Virus record (IMG/VR): IMGVR_UViG_3300021356_000132 | Location: 1 to 27,154 of that record | DNA: 27,154 bases | Direction: 5' to 3' (one strand) | Source of the DNA: a virus | Shown here: one piece after another, positions 1,868 to 23,828 of the stretch | Position numbering within the stretch: position 1 is the first letter of the stretch | Layout: every line of letters starts with the position of its first letter | Program-made: the position numbers and the translations under genes | The notes under the pieces: model-generated | What the model was told of the DNA's origin: nothing | What the model saw: the letters and a program-made list of their open reading frames with translations, nothing else | Database searches by the model: none

Positions 1868-1875
1868 TATTTATA
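1868..1875 (-). promoter_or_regulatory. T4-type late promoter
   Basis: A perfect TATAAATA octamer on the minus strand (1875-1868). Transcription should start near 1862, giving a ~25-nt leader before the ATG at 1837 of the tail-tube-like gene. Confidence 0.8.
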
Positions 1876-12865: not shown

Positions 12866-13028
12866 ATATAGAATTACTTACAATCATGAAATCAAAGACG
12901 GCGTCGTTTTAGAAGTGGTTGGAACAAAAGAACGAGAAGAAGATGGCAGAATGTATATTCGCCGTATTGATGGTATTATTGTCGATATGCCAGTTGCCAA
13001 TATTACTGAAGAGGTTGAAATAACTTAA
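12858..13028 (+). CDS. 56-aa beta-rich protein, unknown function
   Basis: The ATG at 12858 overlaps the end of the phosphomannomutase gene by 8 bp, and its stop shares one base with the next ATG. The short chain looks like a small beta-sheet (ITYNHEIKDGVVLEVVGTKE..., MYIRRIDGIIVDMPV). No motif recognised. The double overlap and reading frame continuity are the support for it. Confidence 0.62.
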   Translation: MSKYRITYNHEIKDGVVLEVVGTKEREEDGRMYIRRIDGIIVDMPVANITEEVEIT

Positions 13029-13324
13029 TGATTCGTAGTGAAAAGGGTGAGAGAAAGATTGATTGGTATGTCAAATGGGCAGCATCATTCTTTGTACTAT
13101 CAGCTATTATTTTCCGTTCATCAGGCTCAGAATATCATTTATTAGATTTATATTTTAGTTTTATTGGTATTGGATTATGGATGTGGGTCTCGATTATGTG
13201 GGAAGACCGAGCACTGATACTTTTAAACGGAGTCGGATGGTCATTCTTAGCTGTGGGTATTATGAAAGACCACGGACAATTTTGGATTAATTTTTGGCAA
13301 AACATATTAGGGTTGACAAATTAA
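13028..13324 (+). CDS. DUF6552-like membrane protein, copy 1
   Basis: This 98-aa protein starts with DWYVKWAAS (about residues 12-20) and has three likely membrane helices (about 18-35, 41-60, 62-80), with the mid-protein pattern W...IMWEDRALIL. The same frame of motifs (DWYVKWAA, then W...MAWSDRAIMI) occurs in the gene at 13485, so the two are paralogues. This WxVKWxA...W.DRAIM pattern recalls small phage and bacterial DUF6552 proteins of unknown role. Its final codons contain the -35 box of the next promoter. Confidence 0.68.
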   Translation: MIRSEKGERKIDWYVKWAASFFVLSAIIFRSSGSEYHLLDLYFSFIGIGLWMWVSIMWEDRALILLNGVGWSFLAVGIMKDHGQFWINFWQNILGLTN

Positions 13325-13484: not shown

Positions 13485-13859
13485 ATGGAAAGTTCACAAG
13501 AAGAAATTAAGCAACTTGTAAGCGAAAGTAAAGCAAGAAGTCTTGCAGCTGAACTTTCCAAAGAAAGAAAGCGATTAAGAGAAGAACTCGCTGAGTTGCA
13601 AAGTGAGGTGGAAGACCTAACACCTACTACGCCTACAGGTACACCAGACTGGTATGTCAAATGGGCAGCAACCATTTTAGGTGTTGCAGGAGTATTTTTA
13701 ATAAGTGCTAATGCAACAGTAACAGGTCAGATTGCATATTTACTTGCAAGTTGTTGTTGGGTATTCGTAGGAATGGCCTGGAGCGATCGAGCTATTATGA
13801 TTGGCTCAAGTATCAGCGGAACAGCAGTTGCAATGAATTTAGTAACAAATTTAACTTAA
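13485..13859 (+). CDS. DUF6552-like membrane protein, copy 2, with coiled-coil N terminus
   Basis: A 124-aa paralogue of the gene at 13028, sharing DWYVKWAA (about residues 53-60) and ...VGMAWSDRAIMIG (about 95-107), with three hydrophobic segments. It differs by an added ~50-residue N-terminal coiled coil (SQEEIKQLVSESKARSLAAE, continuing to about residue 45) that ends in a threonine/proline linker (TPTTPTGTP). This would project a helical rod into the cytoplasm. It starts 14 bp behind tRNA-Arg(ACG). Confidence 0.68.
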   Translation: MESSQEEIKQLVSESKARSLAAELSKERKRLREELAELQSEVEDLTPTTPTGTPDWYVKWAATILGVAGVFLISANATVTGQIAYLLASCCWVFVGMAWSDRAIMIGSSISGTAVAMNLVTNLT

Positions 13860-16995: not shown

Positions 16996-17003
16996 TATTT
17001 ATA
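16996..17003 (-). promoter_or_regulatory. T4-type late promoter, minus arm of overlapping pair
   Basis: TATAAATA on the minus strand (17003-16996), sharing four bases with the plus-strand octamer. Transcription near 16990 leads into the 68-aa membrane gene with a leader of about 42 nt. Confidence 0.75.
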
Positions 17004-17007
17004 AATA
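17000..17007 (+). promoter_or_regulatory. T4-type late promoter for heme oxygenase and bilin reductase
   Basis: TATAAATA at 17000-17007; together with the minus-strand copy it forms the 12-bp palindrome TATTTATAAATA. Transcription should start near 17013, about 31 nt before the heme oxygenase ATG. Confidence 0.78.
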
Positions 17008-17043
17008 AACTTTGTGAAAACCAGATAATATAATGGAGTGGTC

Positions 17044-17655
17044 ATGTCAAACAATCTTAAAGCCTTAACAAAAGAGCATCACGATAACGCAGAAAGAACA
17101 GAATTTGCAGATATGTTATTGAGTGGTAATATCCCACCAAGACTATATCAACAATATCTAGCTGCACAATTAGCAAATTATTCAGCACTTGAAAGCGCAG
17201 TTTCTATACCAATTGAACTTGAATCTATTTTTAGGTCAACACAAATCGAAGACGATTTAATTGAACTTGAAAACATGTACGATTTAGAAGAAGTTGAGGA
17301 ACCACTTAAAAGTGTAGTTGAATATCAAAAGCACATTGACGTACTCTACGAAGACGAAAACAATACTGGACTGTTAGCACATTTATATGTAAGACATTTC
17401 GGTGATGCCCATGGTGGTCAAATTATTAAGAAACATGTTCCTGGTAGTGGAGCAATGTATGAGTTTGACGATCGCAAAGGCCTGATCGCTGGAGTAAGAG
17501 AATTACTTGATGACAGTATGGCTGATGAAGCTAAAATTTGTTTTGAATTCGCAGAGCGTATGTTCTTTGAACTTATAGAACTCTATCACGATAATCCAGA
17601 AGATTATGATAGTAGTGAAACCATCTTAGCAGAACTAAACCAATTCGACGAATGA
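17044..17655 (+). CDS. ho1: heme oxygenase
   Basis: This 203-aa enzyme opens heme to biliverdin IXalpha, iron and CO using reduced ferredoxin. The N terminus LKALTKEHHDNAE gives the proximal heme ligand (H13, the counterpart of human HO-1 His25). The distal-helix signature is GDAHGGQ (120-126), the family's GDLSGGQ. AHLYVRHFGD before it also fits. I use the ATG at 17044, 5 nt behind GGAG, not the GTG at 17038. It is coupled to the bilin reductase gene (ATGA at 17652-17655) and has its own late promoter. Cyanophages carry related ho1 genes. Confidence 0.93.
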   Translation: MSNNLKALTKEHHDNAERTEFADMLLSGNIPPRLYQQYLAAQLANYSALESAVSIPIELESIFRSTQIEDDLIELENMYDLEEVEEPLKSVVEYQKHIDVLYEDENNTGLLAHLYVRHFGDAHGGQIIKKHVPGSGAMYEFDDRKGLIAGVRELLDDSMADEAKICFEFAERMFFELIELYHDNPEDYDSSETILAELNQFDE

Positions 17656-18341
17656 TAGAATCAGAATTATTTGATAAGTTGAGAAACTTGTCAGGCGAGT
17701 TAAGGCGCTTATTTAGCTCTCACATGCAAGAAGTTGAGAATCCAAAACATGTCGCAGACCTTGAAGGTTGGAGTGATTATTTTTGGGAAAGCGATACCAT
17801 ACGAAAAGCTCATTTAAAAACAATAGAACCTGTGGGTAAAAACAAACTTTGGTTGATGCACATCAATATATTTCCAAGAGAGAATATTGATTTACCTATA
17901 TTTGGTTTAGATATTGTAGCTAATCCGAAAAAAATCTCAGGGTGTTTCTGTGACTATTCTCCTATTACTGGTGGTCACCACCCTTATCTAGATAAATTTA
18001 GTTACGAGACTGAGGGGTTAACATGGACCCGAGCTAGAGTCATGCCTGATTGGGCTATGGAAATCTTCAGTCCTAATATTGTTGGTGCAGGTAGTATTCG
18101 CGAAGGTGAAGAAACAGAACAACTTTGTAGTATGGCTCACAATCTTGCATCGTTTTATTGTATGGAAATGAATAATCCAACCTATGCTAAAGACAAAGAA
18201 CTCAACACACTTGAAGCACAAAACAAATATTGTCGTAATCAGAAAATGAATAAAATGCTACACAGCTCTATTCTTGCAATGGGAATATCTGAAGAGCGTA
18301 AAGACCAATATGTAGAGAATGTTTTATTTGAAGAAGTATAA
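17652..18341 (+). CDS. ferredoxin-dependent bilin reductase (PcyA/PcyX-like)
   Basis: This 229-aa member of the FDBR family takes biliverdin from the upstream heme oxygenase to a phycobilin. Core motif: WLMHINIFP...DLPIFGLDIVA...CDYSP at about residues 67-104. By alignment, H70 matches PcyA His88 and D87 matches Asp105, both needed for proton transfer. The C-terminal EAQNKYCRNQ...ENVLFEEV also follows PcyA (HYCQQQ...SQVLFDV). PcyA Glu76, which steers exovinyl reduction, is K56 here (HLK instead of HLE). This suggests a product other than phycocyanobilin, as in the phage PcyX group that makes phycoerythrobilin. It is closer to PcyA/PcyX than to cyanophage PebS. Confidence 0.9.
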   Translation: MIESELFDKLRNLSGELRRLFSSHMQEVENPKHVADLEGWSDYFWESDTIRKAHLKTIEPVGKNKLWLMHINIFPRENIDLPIFGLDIVANPKKISGCFCDYSPITGGHHPYLDKFSYETEGLTWTRARVMPDWAMEIFSPNIVGAGSIREGEETEQLCSMAHNLASFYCMEMNNPTYAKDKELNTLEAQNKYCRNQKMNKMLHSSILAMGISEERKDQYVENVLFEEV

Positions 18342-18483: not shown

Positions 18484-18720
18484 ATGAGAAACTTTGTAGT
18501 AGCAGTTAGTTTACTGTCAGCTGGATTTGTGTCCACAGCAACCGCAGAACCAAAAGATTATGTAGCAAGAATGAATGACGAAGGTCTATATTGCGCAAGA
18601 GTAGAAACAGTAGGAATCAATGGCTTAAAACAGCGTAAAACACGATGCCGAACATTAGAGCAATGGGAAGCAAAAGGTTATGTTGTTGATTTGAGCAAGG
18701 ACCCATCAGAGGTAGAATAA
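18484..18720 (+). CDS. 78-aa secreted protein with signal peptide
   Basis: The N terminus MRNFVVAVSLLSAGFVSTATA is a clear Sec signal peptide, with likely cleavage after A21 or A22 (ATA-E). The mature ~57 residues are basic with two cysteines (about C37 and C55) set in YCARVETVGINGLKQRKTRC, then RTLEQWEAKGY. They could form one disulfide in the periplasm. The C..RVET...G...R..RC.T...W pattern recalls small exported proteins of alphaproteobacteria, hinting at a host-derived gene. It follows the bilin genes after a 142-bp gap and has an AAAAGGA ribosome site. Confidence 0.72.
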   Translation: MRNFVVAVSLLSAGFVSTATAEPKDYVARMNDEGLYCARVETVGINGLKQRKTRCRTLEQWEAKGYVVDLSKDPSEVE

Positions 18721-18950
18721 TGAATATTAAAGCTGTTTGTTATGGCTTTCTTGCAATTAGTTTTTTCGTTATGAGTATGGTCGGATTTCTTTCACCAGTA
18801 ATTTGGCCAGACCTTTACACACCGTTTCATTACCCAGGCTATGGATACGGAAGCTTTCCGTTAGTACAACATCATGTTGAGATGTGCACTTTCGAAGAGT
18901 TTATTATGGACCCTTTGCTTTGCGAAGAACAAGAACTATTTATTGTATAA
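18720..18950 (+). CDS. 76-aa protein with N-terminal membrane segment
   Basis: Its ATG uses the last base of the preceding stop. Residues 5-27 form one hydrophobic segment (AVCYGFLAISFFVMSMVGFL), either a signal anchor or an uncleaved signal. The rest is aromatic/proline-rich (PFHYPGYGYGSFP), then acidic with two cysteines (C56, C68). It is probably exported or anchored facing the periplasm, together with the 78-aa signal-peptide protein. No family recognised. The stop lies inside the late promoter octamer at 18946. Confidence 0.66.
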   Translation: MNIKAVCYGFLAISFFVMSMVGFLSPVIWPDLYTPFHYPGYGYGSFPLVQHHVEMCTFEEFIMDPLLCEEQELFIV

Positions 18951-19053: not shown

Positions 19054-19082
19054 TTGACAAACGCGGTTAAACGTGTTATAAT
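19054..19082 (+). promoter_or_regulatory. consensus extended -10 promoter abutting a terminator
   Basis: TTGACA (19054-19059), 17 bp, TATAAT (19077-19082), with TG at 19074-19075. The predicted start (about 19088-19090) lies within the left arm of the terminator hairpin that follows. Confidence 0.88.
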
Positions 19083-19084
19083 AT

Positions 19085-19116
19085 ATGGGCTTATTGGGAA
19101 ATAGGCCCATTTTTTT
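19085..19116 (+). terminator. strong intrinsic terminator
   Basis: An 11-bp stem (ATGGGCTTATT / AATAGGCCCAT, one G-T pair), GGGA loop, then seven T (19110-19116). It would stop late transcripts from 18946 and any transcript from the promoter at 19054. Confidence 0.9.
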
Positions 19117-19140: not shown

Positions 19141-19169
19141 TTGACAATGCATTGCTTTTAGTATACAAT
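19141..19169 (+). promoter_or_regulatory. sigma70-type promoter for gp33 and replication genes
   Basis: TTGACA (19141-19146), 17 bp, TACAAT (19164-19169). It starts 25 bp after the terminator and lies 12 bp before the gp33 ATG, so the leader is very short. Confidence 0.85.
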
Positions 19170-19459: not shown

Positions 19460-20044
19460 ATGCTCGCTGACTCTGGATTTGAAACATACATTAAATATCT
19501 AGCACTAAAAAAGCATTTCACAACTGATGGCTATGATTATCATAAATACAATGGTAAAGTCAGAGCTTCAATAGAAACTTTTCGTACTAGACCTGATGCA
19601 TATAGTTTTGCAAAGTTATCAAAAAGAGACGATGTTATTAACTTTATGCTCGCAAATTTTATAAATAATCCGAATATCTGGATTAGGCAATTACTCGACT
19701 TTGAGGCCCAAGACAGATATAACGACTGGAGGAAAAAGCAAGAGTCATTGACTTACACTTTTAAATCCGAGCTGAAAAATCTTCAAGAAGATTGGACAGC
19801 AAACTTTATATCAAGAGATGGTCAACATCCTTACATTATGACTCAGTATAGTCAGAAGAAGATTTCATTAGAGACCTTCACCATTCTAACTCATACTGCC
19901 AATATTTTTGATTATTGGGGTGAAAAAATTGTTGACAAAATTATCTCACATGATATAATACGACTATCTAGAAAGTATAAACCCTTTCTAGTATATGATG
20001 AACGGAAGTTTAAGGACATATTACGTGACCACTTCCAATTGTAA
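19460..20044 (+). CDS. 59: helicase loader gp59-like
   Basis: This 194-aa protein corresponds to T4 gp59 (217 aa), which binds fork DNA and gp32 and loads the gp41 helicase. The N-terminal pattern YIKYLALKKHF...YDYHKYNGKVRAS...R.DAYSFAKLSK (about residues 10-55) matches the family (T4: YKLYLMIKQHM...YDVIKYNWCMRVS). A helical C-terminal half with ISLETFTILTHTANIFD follows (T4: ISFETFILLDSFLNIID). It starts right behind the gp33 stop. A promoter for gp32 is embedded in its last third (19932-19959). Confidence 0.86.
   Translation: MLADSGFETYIKYLALKKHFTTDGYDYHKYNGKVRASIETFRTRPDAYSFAKLSKRDDVINFMLANFINNPNIWIRQLLDFEAQDRYNDWRKKQESLTYTFKSELKNLQEDWTANFISRDGQHPYIMTQYSQKKISLETFTILTHTANIFDYWGEKIVDKIISHDIIRLSRKYKPFLVYDERKFKDILRDHFQL
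19932..19959 (+). promoter_or_regulatory. internal promoter for gene 32
   Basis: TTGACA (19932-19937), 16 bp, TATAAT (19954-19959) with an extended TG at 19951-19952, inside the gp59 coding region, about 115 bp upstream of the gp32 ATG. T4 also transcribes gene 32 from promoters of its own. Confidence 0.72.
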
Positions 20045-20082: not shown

Positions 20083-21018
20083 ATGGCAACTACAAACTTT
20101 GCTTCGCTTAAGAAGAATCGTACGAAGTCACTCGACGCGCTAAACGCACAGCTCGATAAGATTTCAACTAAATCATACCAAGACCCAAACGAGGGTAAAT
20201 TCTGGAAACCAACAAGAGATAAAGCTGGTAACGGCTTTGCGATTATTCGTTTCCTACCTGCTCCAAATAATGAGGAGATGCCTTTCGTAAGAATTTGGGA
20301 CCACGGGTTCCAAGGACCTACAGGGTTGTGGTATATCGAAAACAGCTTGACTACTATCAACCAAGACGACCCAGTATCTGAATACAACTCTAAGTTGTGG
20401 AATTCTGGCGTTGATGCTGATAAAGACCAAGCTCGTAAACAAAAGCGTAGATTGAAGTATACTTCAAATATCTATGTTGTCAAAGACCCAGCAAACCCAG
20501 AAAACGAAGGGAAGGTCTTTATGTACTCATTCGGTAAAAAGATTTTTGATAAGTTAAACGACTTGATGAATCCTACCTTTGAAGATGAAGAACCAGTAAA
20601 TCCATTCGACCTATGGGAAGGTGCTAATTTCAGACTGAAAATTCGTAAGTTCGAGGGTTACCCAAACTATGACAAATCTGAATTTGATGCACCATCACCG
20701 CTATTAGATGATGATGAAGCACTTGAAGGTGTATGGAATCAAGAGCATTCTCTACAAGCACTTGTAGAGCCTTCTAACTTTAAATCATACGATGAACTCA
20801 AGCAAAAACTCTACAGAGTTCTTGACCTTGCTAATGAAACTCAAGAGGTTTCAGCACCATCACCGTATGAGGCAGAAGATATACAAGAAGATGGACTTGA
20901 TATTTCAAGCACAATCAAAGAAGCTGCACCAGCTCCAGTAGCTGCGGCAGAAACTGCATCAGAAGTAGATGATGACGACGATGACCTTTCAATTTTCAAA
21001 GAGCTCGCTCGTAACTAA
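20083..21018 (+). CDS. 32: single-stranded DNA-binding protein gp32-like, without zinc cysteines
   Basis: This 311-aa protein binds ssDNA cooperatively during replication and recombination. N-terminal basic arm (SLKKNRTKSLDAL, 8-20), an OB core with FWKPTRDKAGNGFAIIRFLP (40-59), YTSNIYVVKDPANPENEGKV (126-145) and YSFGKKIFDKLNDLM, then an acidic C-terminal tail (DDDDDDLSIF) that binds gp59, UvsY and others. T4 gp32 holds zinc with His64, Cys77, Cys87 and Cys90. Here the whole protein has no cysteine: the CPVC of T4 reads DPVS at 96-99. The His (H74 region) remains. Ribosome site AAGGAG, strong. Confidence 0.96.
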   Translation: MATTNFASLKKNRTKSLDALNAQLDKISTKSYQDPNEGKFWKPTRDKAGNGFAIIRFLPAPNNEEMPFVRIWDHGFQGPTGLWYIENSLTTINQDDPVSEYNSKLWNSGVDADKDQARKQKRRLKYTSNIYVVKDPANPENEGKVFMYSFGKKIFDKLNDLMNPTFEDEEPVNPFDLWEGANFRLKIRKFEGYPNYDKSEFDAPSPLLDDDEALEGVWNQEHSLQALVEPSNFKSYDELKQKLYRVLDLANETQEVSAPSPYEAEDIQEDGLDISSTIKEAAPAPVAAAETASEVDDDDDDLSIFKELARN

Positions 21019-21349: not shown

Positions 21350-22423
21350 ATGAGTCTACTTGACAAAATGTTGAAGGCGGGTTCAGTCAAAGGGTCGACT
21401 GTCCTATCAAAAAGTTCCTTCTTTAATACCAAAGACCCAATACAAACAGAACTACCAATTGTGAATATCGCATTCTGCGGTTCTCTCAATGGTGGTTTAC
21501 TTCCAGGTTTAACTGTAGTAGCTGGTGAATCAAAGAGCTTCAAAACTCTTTTAGGCCTCTATTGCATGAAAGCTTATTTAAACAAATATCCAGATGGTGT
21601 TGCAATCTTATATGATTCTGAGTATGGTATTACTCCAGAATATCTTGAAAGCTACAACATTGATACTGACCGTGTTATTCACGTTCCAATCGAAGACGTC
21701 GAGCAATTAAAGTTTGACTGCACAAATCGCTTGAACGAGATTGACAAAGGAGATAAAGTCTTTATAATGATTGACTCTATTGGTAACCTTGCTTCTCGTA
21801 AAGAAGTTGATGATGCCTTAAATGAGAAATCAGTTGCTGATATGACGAGAGCAAAACAGCTTAAATCATTATTCAGAATTGTTACGCCTAAGCTGACAGG
21901 TAAAGATATTCCGATGATTGCTATCAACCACACTTATAAAGAAATTGGTCTGTTCCCTAAGAACATCGTTTCAGGTGGTACTGGTATTTACTATTCAGCA
22001 AACCAAATCTTTATCATTTCTAAATCTCAACAGAAAGAAGGTACTGACCTTGCAGGGTTTAAGTTCACTATTAATATTGAGAAATCTAGGTATGTTAAAG
22101 AAAAAGCTAAACTACCATTTACTGTACTTTATGACACAGGTATCCAAAAGTATTCAAGTCTGTTTGACCTAGCACTTGAATCTGGTCACTTGACAAAAGC
22201 AAATCAAGGGTGGTATAATTTAGTTAACATGGACACGGGTGAAATCATTGACCCTAAGCGTAGACTGAAAGATATTGAACAAGACAATGAGTTCTTTGAA
22301 GGACTTATTGCTGACCCAAGGTTTAACGAATACGTTGAGAAAAAATTCAAATTAACTACATTAGAAATGGGAGATGCTGAAGATGATAGAGAAGACGATA
22401 CTATCGAATCTGATACTGAATGA
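21350..22423 (+). CDS. uvsX: UvsX recombinase (RecA-like)
   Basis: This 357-aa strand-exchange protein forms filaments on ssDNA, pairs homologues and starts recombination-dependent replication with UvsY, gp32 and gp41, all in this window. Walker A: AGESKSFKT (58-66). Walker B: VFIMID (137-142). The segment VSGGTGIYYSANQIFIIS (about 204-221) is the RecA/UvsX L2-side region. The C-terminal end is acidic (DAEDDREDDTIESDTE). The last 41 bp overlap the start of gp41 in another frame. T4 UvsX is about 390 aa, so this is a slightly short version. Confidence 0.96.
   Translation: MSLLDKMLKAGSVKGSTVLSKSSFFNTKDPIQTELPIVNIAFCGSLNGGLLPGLTVVAGESKSFKTLLGLYCMKAYLNKYPDGVAILYDSEYGITPEYLESYNIDTDRVIHVPIEDVEQLKFDCTNRLNEIDKGDKVFIMIDSIGNLASRKEVDDALNEKSVADMTRAKQLKSLFRIVTPKLTGKDIPMIAINHTYKEIGLFPKNIVSGGTGIYYSANQIFIISKSQQKEGTDLAGFKFTINIEKSRYVKEKAKLPFTVLYDTGIQKYSSLFDLALESGHLTKANQGWYNLVNMDTGEIIDPKRRLKDIEQDNEFFEGLIADPRFNEYVEKKFKLTTLEMGDAEDDREDDTIESDTE
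21741..21768 (+). promoter_or_regulatory. possible internal promoter in uvsX (1)
   Basis: TTGACA (21741-21746), 16 bp, TATAAT (21763-21768), within the Walker B coding region. Both hexamers are consensus, but it could be chance; the only genes it could feed are the end of uvsX and gp41. Confidence 0.4.
22190..22219 (+). promoter_or_regulatory. possible internal promoter for gene 41
   Basis: TTGACA (22190-22195), 18 bp, TATAAT (22214-22219) with an extended TG at 22211-22212, about 165 bp upstream of the gp41 ATG within uvsX. Confidence 0.5.
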
Positions 22424-23828
22424 GGAATATAGCCGAAAGGTTTATCCTTATCTCAAAGATGATTATTTCGAAGATATCTCTTATCGTAAAATCTTTAATT
22501 CTGTCACTGAATATGTAGAGCAATACAAAGAGCCTCCCACCATAGAGGCTCTTAAGCTCTCACTTGAAAAGCGTAAAGACTTAAACGAAGATACTTATAA
22601 CACTATTCAAGAGCTATTGGGTGAGTTTGAGATTGACAAAACAACCAACCCTCAGTTCTTGCTTGACGAGACTGAAAAGTTTTGCCAAGACAAAGATTTG
22701 TACAATAGTATTCGTAAGAGTATTCTTATACTTGATGGCCAAGATGGTCAAAATGATAAAGGTAGCATTCCAAAATTACTATCCGATAGTTTGGGCATTA
22801 GCTTTGACTCAAGCGTCGGTCACGACTTTTTAAATGACTATGAAGATCGTTACGAACATTACCACAGAAAAGAAGAGCGGATTCCGTTTGACATTGATAT
22901 TCTAAACAAAATTACCAAAGGTGGTTTACCTCGTAAATCAATGACAGTATTACTTGCTACGACGGGTGGTGGTAAATCATTACTCAAATGTCACATGGCA
23001 GCTAATCATCTGATGTATGGTAAAAATGTTCTCTATATTACTATGGAAATGGCAGAAGAAGAAATCGGCCGACGTATTGATGCGAACATTATGGATATTA
23101 CAATGGACGAAGTCAATGAGATTCCAAGAGATGTTTATGAAAAAAGACTCAACAGATACAAAACTAAAACCACTGGTAAACTTGTTATTAAAGAGTATCC
23201 TACTGGTTCTGTGCATTCTGGTCACTTTAGACACTTACTAAATGAGCTTGAACAGAAGAAAAACTTTAAGCCTGATGTGATATTCCTTGACTATCTTAAC
23301 ATTTGTGCTTCATCTCGTGTAAGAGGTGCTGCAGCATCAAGTAGTTATAACCTTGTTAAGAGTATTGCTGAAGAGGTTCGTGGTCTTGCGATGGAGTTTA
23401 ACTGTGCACTTGTAACATCATCTCAGTTCAACCGTGATGGTTACGGCAACTCTGATGTTGACCTTACAAATACATCTGAATCTATGGGTATTACTCATAC
23501 TGCTGACTGTATTCTTGGTCTAGTAACATCTGAACAACTTGACGAACTCGGACAACTCATGCTCAAACAATTAAAGAATCGTTGGGGTGACATCAGTTGG
23601 TATCGTAGGTTCTTGGTTGGTATTGATAGAGCAAAGATGAAAATCTATGAGCTTGAAGAAAGCGCTCAAAACAATATTAACATGGACGACAGCTCGGGCG
23701 GTAGCTCTGGAAAAAAGACGAAGAGCTATGACGATGACGGACCAGTGTTCGATAAAACAGACATCGGTCAGCGTTTAGGTAGCAAAGGTAAGAGAAAAGG
23801 TGTTTTCAACGACGTTCAATTAATTTGA
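22383..23828 (+). CDS. 41: replicative DNA helicase gp41-like (DnaB family)
   Basis: This 481-aa hexameric fork helicase works with the gp61 primase (not in this window) and is loaded by gp59. The N terminus MIEKTILSNLILNEEYSRKVYPYL matches T4 gp41 (MVEIILSHLIFDQAYFSKVWPYM in part), which is why I use the ATG at 22383 and not 22374. Walker A is ATTGGGKS (about 192-199), followed by NVLYITMEMAEEEIGRRIDANIMD (family core, in part) and VIFLDYLNIC as Walker B. A low-complexity linker (DDSSGGSSGKKTKS) precedes a basic tail. It overlaps uvsX by 41 bp. Confidence 0.95.
   Translation: MIEKTILSNLILNEEYSRKVYPYLKDDYFEDISYRKIFNSVTEYVEQYKEPPTIEALKLSLEKRKDLNEDTYNTIQELLGEFEIDKTTNPQFLLDETEKFCQDKDLYNSIRKSILILDGQDGQNDKGSIPKLLSDSLGISFDSSVGHDFLNDYEDRYEHYHRKEERIPFDIDILNKITKGGLPRKSMTVLLATTGGGKSLLKCHMAANHLMYGKNVLYITMEMAEEEIGRRIDANIMDITMDEVNEIPRDVYEKRLNRYKTKTTGKLVIKEYPTGSVHSGHFRHLLNELEQKKNFKPDVIFLDYLNICASSRVRGAAASSSYNLVKSIAEEVRGLAMEFNCALVTSSQFNRDGYGNSDVDLTNTSESMGITHTADCILGLVTSEQLDELGQLMLKQLKNRWGDISWYRRFLVGIDRAKMKIYELEESAQNNINMDDSSGGSSGKKTKSYDDDGPVFDKTDIGQRLGSKGKRKGVFNDVQLI

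Follow-up and report, generated by a model that had tools for sequence, protein, structure and literature searches.

A lysine-variant, PcyX-related bilin reductase paired with heme oxygenase behind a late-type promoter element in T4-like phages that are apparently not cyanophages

Bilin genes of phages are generally put down to light harvesting in cyanobacteria, and a T4-like phage stretch in which such genes follow a late-type promoter element raises the question of what heme breakdown would do for a phage late in infection. The stretch analysed here in full, called the window, is the 27,154 bases of IMGVR_UViG_3300021356_000132, a linear virus fragment according to its record, which encodes a gp39/gp52-type topoisomerase, tail tube, ThyX, six tRNAs, gp59, gp32, UvsX and gp41 (Table 1). 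The window also encodes two adjoining proteins that are both DUF6552 (13028-13324 and 13485-13859).

Table 1. Features of the window at and downstream of the bilin gene pair.
Feature	Position	Strand	Remarks
Palindrome TATTTATAAATA, with T4-late-type TATAAATA on each strand	16996-17007		between divergent genes; conserved in 63/77 relatives
Heme oxygenase (HO), 203 aa	17044-17655	+	PF01126, E=3.8e-21; PDB heme oxygenases
Ferredoxin-dependent bilin reductase (FDBR), Lys56 type, 229 aa	17652-18341	+	PF05996, E=2.1e-20
Small protein with signal-peptide-like N-terminus	18484-18720	+	equivalent position in 21 relatives
Small membrane-type protein	18720-18950	+	equivalent position in 26 relatives
Sigma-70-type promoter, perfect (TTGACA-17-TATAAT)	19054-19082	+	ahead of replication block
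Terminator-like hairpin with T run	19085-19110	+	separates bilin genes from replication block
Second sigma-70-type promoter, 11/12 match	19141-19169	+	ahead of replication block
Conserved protein of ~92 aa	19181-19459	+	opens replication block; 68/84 relatives
gp59-like helicase loader	19460-20044	+	PHROG 269, E=5.6e-51; 3' of pair in 79/84 relatives
gp32-like single-strand DNA-binding protein	20083-21018	+	top-scoring isolates: Sinorhizobium phages phiM7/M12/M19
UvsX recombinase	21350-22423	+	within 21350-23828
gp41 helicase	22374-23828	+	within 21350-23828

The pair encodes a heme oxygenase and a ferredoxin-dependent bilin reductase. HO scores 76.3 bits against the PF01126 cut-off of 23, matches solved heme oxygenases in the PDB, and has a proximal-type His13 and the distal-helix motif GDxxGG (G120-D121-x-x-G124-G125), all invariant in 37 relatives; its start is taken as the ATG at 17044, an alternative GTG at 17038 adding 2 aa. 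FDBR scores 73.8 bits against the PF05996 cut-off of 31, and its closest solved structure by sequence is PcyX EBK42635 (PDB 5owg, E=1.1e-29), followed by PcyA. An AlphaFold2 model of FDBR (pLDDT 91.5, pTM 0.90) matches the structures of PcyA, PcyX, PebB, PebA and PebS. The genes overlap by 4 nt (ATGA) downstream of TATAAATA, which bears out the preliminary description of an overlapping oxygenase and reductase pair behind one element. The residue equivalences proposed there are likewise correct by alignment: K56, H70 and D87 of FDBR correspond to Glu76, His88 and Asp105 of PcyA.

IMG/VR searches yielded loci with reductases 42-98% identical to that of the window, and the counts given here use deduplicated sequences (83 Lys-type, 62 PcyX-type, and 66 cyanobacterial/cyanophage PcyA-type). 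At PcyA positions 76, 88 and 105, every Lys-type reductase has Lys-His-Asp (83/83), every PcyX-type reductase Asp-His-Asp (62/62), and every PcyA-type reductase Glu-His-Asp (66/66). HO is found on the same contig in 76 of the 83 Lys-type relatives; 63 of these 76 have it adjoining FDBR (-35 to +11 nt), and most of the seven relatives that do not show HO end at a contig edge. Pairwise dN/dS in the near clade is 0.06-0.12 for FDBR and 0.06-0.09 for HO; therefore, both proteins are maintained by strong purifying selection. A search of plasmids for FDBR gave zero matches, and a scan of genome contigs gave cyanobacterial loci and a few mislabelled or phage contigs. A contig titled Bifidobacterium breve MAG (L175) groups with cyanobacterial PcyA; this contig and another titled Nonlabens xiamenensis (L197) look misassigned. 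A Bacteroidota host suggested by the latter was rejected, the contig being T4-like cyanophage sequence with a Glu-type pcyA in a flavobacterial assembly. In the single-cell virus Marine virus AG-345-L05 (L089/L094), HO (96.7 kb) and a PebS-like reductase (34.2 kb) are widely separated within one genome.

The relation of the window reductase to known families was addressed with a maximum-likelihood tree of 78 sequences; these did not include PcyA of Alphaproteobacteria (AX) or of the freshwater phage CB_2, which earlier trees place close to PcyX (PMC10151467, PMC11480375). A clade with 100/100 support unites the Lys family with PcyX, apart from PcyA (Glu) and from PebA/PebB/PebS, and PcyX is a 100/100 subclade of its own inside this joint clade. 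Approximately unbiased (AU) tests rejected placement of the window sequence in the cyanobacterial/cyanophage PcyA clade (p-AU 0.0008) and a group of PcyX and PcyA without the Lys family (p-AU 0.0025), while a single clade of all Lys sequences, sister to PcyX, was not rejected (p-AU 0.47). Two changes at residue 56 suffice on the tree. The likeness to the PcyX group claimed at the outset thus stands in that PcyX is the closest relative, but membership does not, because the Asp of PcyX at the PcyA-Glu76 position is an invariant Lys and PcyX forms its own clade; the sequences favour regarding PcyX as a sister group, and the window FDBR as a PcyX-related variant rather than PcyX itself. The tree asked for in the same description places the window enzyme outside both cyanobacterial PcyA and PebS.

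Comparison with characterised systems leads to the same distinctions. PcyX (phycoerythrobilin synthase; EBK42635, 5owg; Pelagibacter phage Mosig) is likewise encoded by a phage gene directly 3' of HO and has a fold and catalytic His-Asp pair in common with the Lys-type FDBR, but it is 26-30% identical to the Lys family and carries Asp (Asp55), not Lys, where PcyA has Glu76. PcyA of cyanobacteria, cyanophages and CB_2 is also an FDBR with the His88 and Asp105 equivalents, but all PcyA sampled have Glu76 where the window FDBR has Lys56. PebS of cyanophage P-SSM2, with ho1, is similarly part of a phage gene pair leading from heme to bilin, but it has VND at the three positions, the His being missing, and lies on a distant branch; the Peb references have N at the PcyA-His88 position, whereas His70 is kept in the window enzyme, in agreement with the original statement that it is not PebS-like.

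The PcyX-type and Lys-type pairs also differ in their surroundings. The Lys-type pair lies upstream of gp59-gp32 (gp59 follows it in 79 of the 84 unique loci, usually along with gp32, uvsX and gp41), whereas the PcyX-type pair is followed by gp13 (72 matches), as in Mosig, where it adjoins the neck, terminase and sheath genes among other late structural genes. Thus, the two variants occupy different, lineage-fixed sites. In Mosig, a ferritin-fold protein annotated as rubrerythrin (MT647606, 107716-108141) is encoded between gp32 and a gp59-like region, close to the site of the bilin genes in the window lineage.

FDBRs are common in T4-like cyanophages, some of which also carry heme oxygenase, and so an ordinary cyanophage with a pcyA or PebS gene had to be considered. 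The tree and the AU tests are against it, and Photo_RC (PF00124; psbA/psbD) was absent from seven larger Lys-type relatives totalling 608 kb (one measures 194.6 kb) and from Mosig, with P-SSM2 positive as a control; no photosynthesis genes were recognised in the 27-kb window fragment itself, and the phage can still be described as one without visible photosynthesis genes, as it was initially, within these sequences. For the gp41 and gp32 of the window and the major capsid protein of the 194.6-kb relative, the phages of Sinorhizobium, Caulobacter, Stenotrophomonas, OM43 and cyanobacteria are at much the same distance, non-cyanobacterial phages being slightly ahead of cyanobacterial ones for gp32 and the major capsid protein; gp39 of the window is closest to Vibrio T4-like phages. 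The T4-type topoisomerase genes and the two-piece alpha-type tmRNA of relatives also argue against a cyanophage. By these comparisons the window phage appears not to be a cyanophage: that reading is largely refuted, and is hardly credible.

The host of the window phage is most likely a proteobacterial heterotroph. The closest isolates for gp41, gp32 and major capsid are Melnitz (OM43), phiM12 (Sinorhizobium) and Cr30 (Caulobacter), although no FDBR-bearing match was found among these phages. A permuted two-piece tmRNA is encoded in 10 of the 83 Lys-type loci, all on deeper branches and mostly just upstream of HO (L286, L293, L301, L330, L331, L338, L339, L340 and L341; downstream in L309); the PcyX-type (62) and Glu-type (66) loci have none, and neither does the window. 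The encoded tags include ANTNAAPKALALAA and ANDNVAPSGYALAA; in Rfam, two of the tmRNAs are alpha_tmRNA, and the best match of L301 within the clan is beta_tmRNA. Although typical of Alphaproteobacteria, two-piece tmRNA occurs in other lineages too, and Melnitz also has one, of an alpha-like kind (PMC9004378); it is therefore a lead to the host and not proof, consistent with probably alphaproteobacterial hosts for the deep branches. Of the host prediction called for earlier, the tRNA part was run and was not diagnostic, the tRNA genes of the window matching phages of many bacteria at 70-94%.

The sequence TATAAATA is the late promoter element of T4. It lies ahead of HO at 17000-17007 (+) and, inside the palindrome TATTTATAAATA, at 16996-17003 (-), the palindrome lying 44 nt upstream of the HO ATG. 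Since the window is AT-rich, with 3.2 matches to TATAAATA expected by chance, the element could be a chance match, the pair being expressed early with the replication genes. The 8-mer alone is indeed weak evidence (8 matches in the window, a number that 1 of 100 shuffles reached), but its conservation appears to make it strong: in 63 of 77 relatives TATAAATA lies no more than 150 nt from the start of HO, mostly as TATTTATAAATA 43-65 nt before it, and the position and palindrome are kept down to ~50% protein identity, the deepest lineages being without the palindrome. By contrast, TATAAATA is found upstream of gp59 in 0 of 79 relatives and upstream of uvsX in 0 of 59. The next block has sigma-70 promoters of its own, and in the window also a terminator-like hairpin; in 56 of 68 loci the gene that begins the replication block is preceded by a 12/12 sigma-70 promoter, compared with 0 of 68 in shuffled sequence. 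A terminator scan of the relatives that accepted exact stems only (no G-T pairs) gave no matches. As expected of a late signal, TATAAATA also occurs 31 nt upstream of the tail-tube gene of the window (1868-1875, minus strand). An FkbM-type methyltransferase gene (1892-2605) is divergent from the tail-tube gene. Early expression from a chance element is accordingly given very little weight. Because TATAAATA precedes HO while the replication block opens with a sigma-70 promoter, late expression of the pair is well supported and strongly suggested by the sequence, in keeping with the late-type control first claimed, although timing itself would be read here from promoter sequence.

The genomes of relatives offer clues to purpose. 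Genes of 5-aminolevulinate synthase (alaS; TIGR01821, 570 bits for G006 against a cut-off of 339) are present in four relatives (G001, G011, G006, and G002, where the gene is cut off), directly 3' of nrdB in G001, G011 and G002. A glutaredoxin-like N-terminus was noted with the nrdB-alaS site of these last three, and some relatives have a serine hydroxymethyltransferase gene. In G001, alaS lies at 75 kb (74637-75668, L392; the other alaS entries are L393, L394 and L395) and FDBR at 45 kb. A three-gene cassette with adjoining alaS was ruled out by this location ~30 kb away, after nrdB. The hemO-FDBR(-alaS) theme is known from pelagiphage Mosig and metagenomes (PMC11480375); the hemO-pcyA/X-alaS cassettes described there resemble the present loci in the HO and FDBR pair, with alaS elsewhere in several Lys-type genomes, but differ in having alaS inside the cassette or nearby and in belonging to contigs placed with pelagiphages by gp13. 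Some relatives of the window phage may thus feed the heme pathway as well as drain it.

Genes of iron handling recur in these phages. An A-type Fe-S carrier (IscA/SufA-like) is encoded on the opposite strand upstream of HO in 30 of 84 loci (L038:6853-7173 and 29 others), and the 194.6-kb relative has a Dps-like ferritin (L366:7339-7770); both fit iron handling. In 40 of the 84 loci, a Class 3 lipase gene lies nearby on the strand opposite to the pair (L343:1930-2694 and 39 others). No ferredoxin gene was detected in 12 Lys-type relatives, and so the host must supply the electrons; Mosig has a ferredoxin gene. Neither phytochrome (PHY) nor phycobilisome-type globin was detected in the larger Lys-type relatives, and the genes beside the pair include no conserved bilin-binding partner.

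The cassette is on balance probably a two-enzyme system of heme breakdown and bilin formation, carried by a T4-like aquatic phage of a non-cyanobacterial host for late clearance of heme and biliverdin. Late in infection, TATAAATA would drive HO and FDBR from a single message; HO, judging from its family and conserved residues, would open heme to biliverdin, iron and CO; and the Lys56-type FDBR, with host ferredoxin and its His70/Asp87 pair, would reduce biliverdin to a phycobilin. Coupled late removal of heme and biliverdin would free iron and clear the product that slows heme oxygenase, and in lineages with alaS by nrdB the phage may first raise the supply of heme and later drain it. Clearance with iron release is favoured in view of the recurring genes of iron handling and the lack of any visible user of the bilin. 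The synthesis of heme implied by alaS is, however, awkward for a purpose of iron scavenging alone.

Since heme would also be built up in some lineages, a wanted bilin product stays a serious rival, although it is considered doubtful: a phycobilin made late may serve as a chromophore, antioxidant or light filter in a host bacteriophytochrome, in the virion or in protection of the cell, with alaS adding flux at the start of the pathway. HO alone would already free iron, yet strong purifying selection retains a true bilin reductase in every pair, and in E. coli a related phage PcyA furnished the chromophore of a working phytochrome (PMC11480375). On the other hand, PHY, phycobilisome-type globin and photosystem genes were not found in the larger relatives, zero bilin-binding partners are conserved beside the pair, and alaS of G001 is far from the pair and has no TATAAATA just upstream.

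We know of no characterised precedent for Lys at the PcyA-Glu76 position, and Lys56 could change or abolish the product of FDBR. Glu76 of PcyA is tied to reduction of the 18-vinyl group and formation of phycocyanobilin (PCB), and one pre-PcyA without it made PPhiB and phycoerythrobilin (PEB) (PMC10151467). Phycocyanobilin is therefore an unlikely product of the window enzyme, which lacks this Glu; PEB, as for PcyX, is the best guess as the likelier product, and PPhiB or dihydrobiliverdin is possible. A more radical explanation, that catalysis has been lost or changed so that FDBR is a biliverdin-binding partner or forms a two-electron product only, would account for replacement of the proton-relay Glu of PcyA by Lys in every member, and the link of Glu76 to PCB formation could be taken the same way (PMC10151467). 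It is considered improbable, in that dN/dS is low and the His/Asp pair, reported to be critical in PcyX, is invariant. Ledermann 2018 also reportedly states that the residue of PcyX at the Glu76 site is non-catalytic, which counts against lost or changed catalysis.

Earlier work has described pelagiphage pairs of hemO and PcyX, cassettes with linked alaS, and a heterotroph-phage host (PMC11480375; Mosig). The Lys clade, its fixed site at gp59 and the contrast of late and early promoters are new as far as could be found, no description of them having been located in the open-access literature. A conserved, large family in phages of non-phototrophs, with a distinct active-site residue and late-type control, implies that the light-harvesting explanation is not general, and the series of Glu, Asp and Lys at one site provides a well-defined set of enzymes for the study of FDBR product choice. 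What phages gain from heme breakdown is an old question that is now testable by timing and deletion. A bolder proposal, put forward tentatively and judged rather unlikely, is that the Lys56 FDBRs are a separate functional family with its own product or regiochemistry, deployed late in non-photosynthetic bacteria within a phage control of the whole heme pathway in which alaS acts early and HO and FDBR late; if true, the bilin or the freed iron would serve the virion or the lysis stage and not light harvesting.
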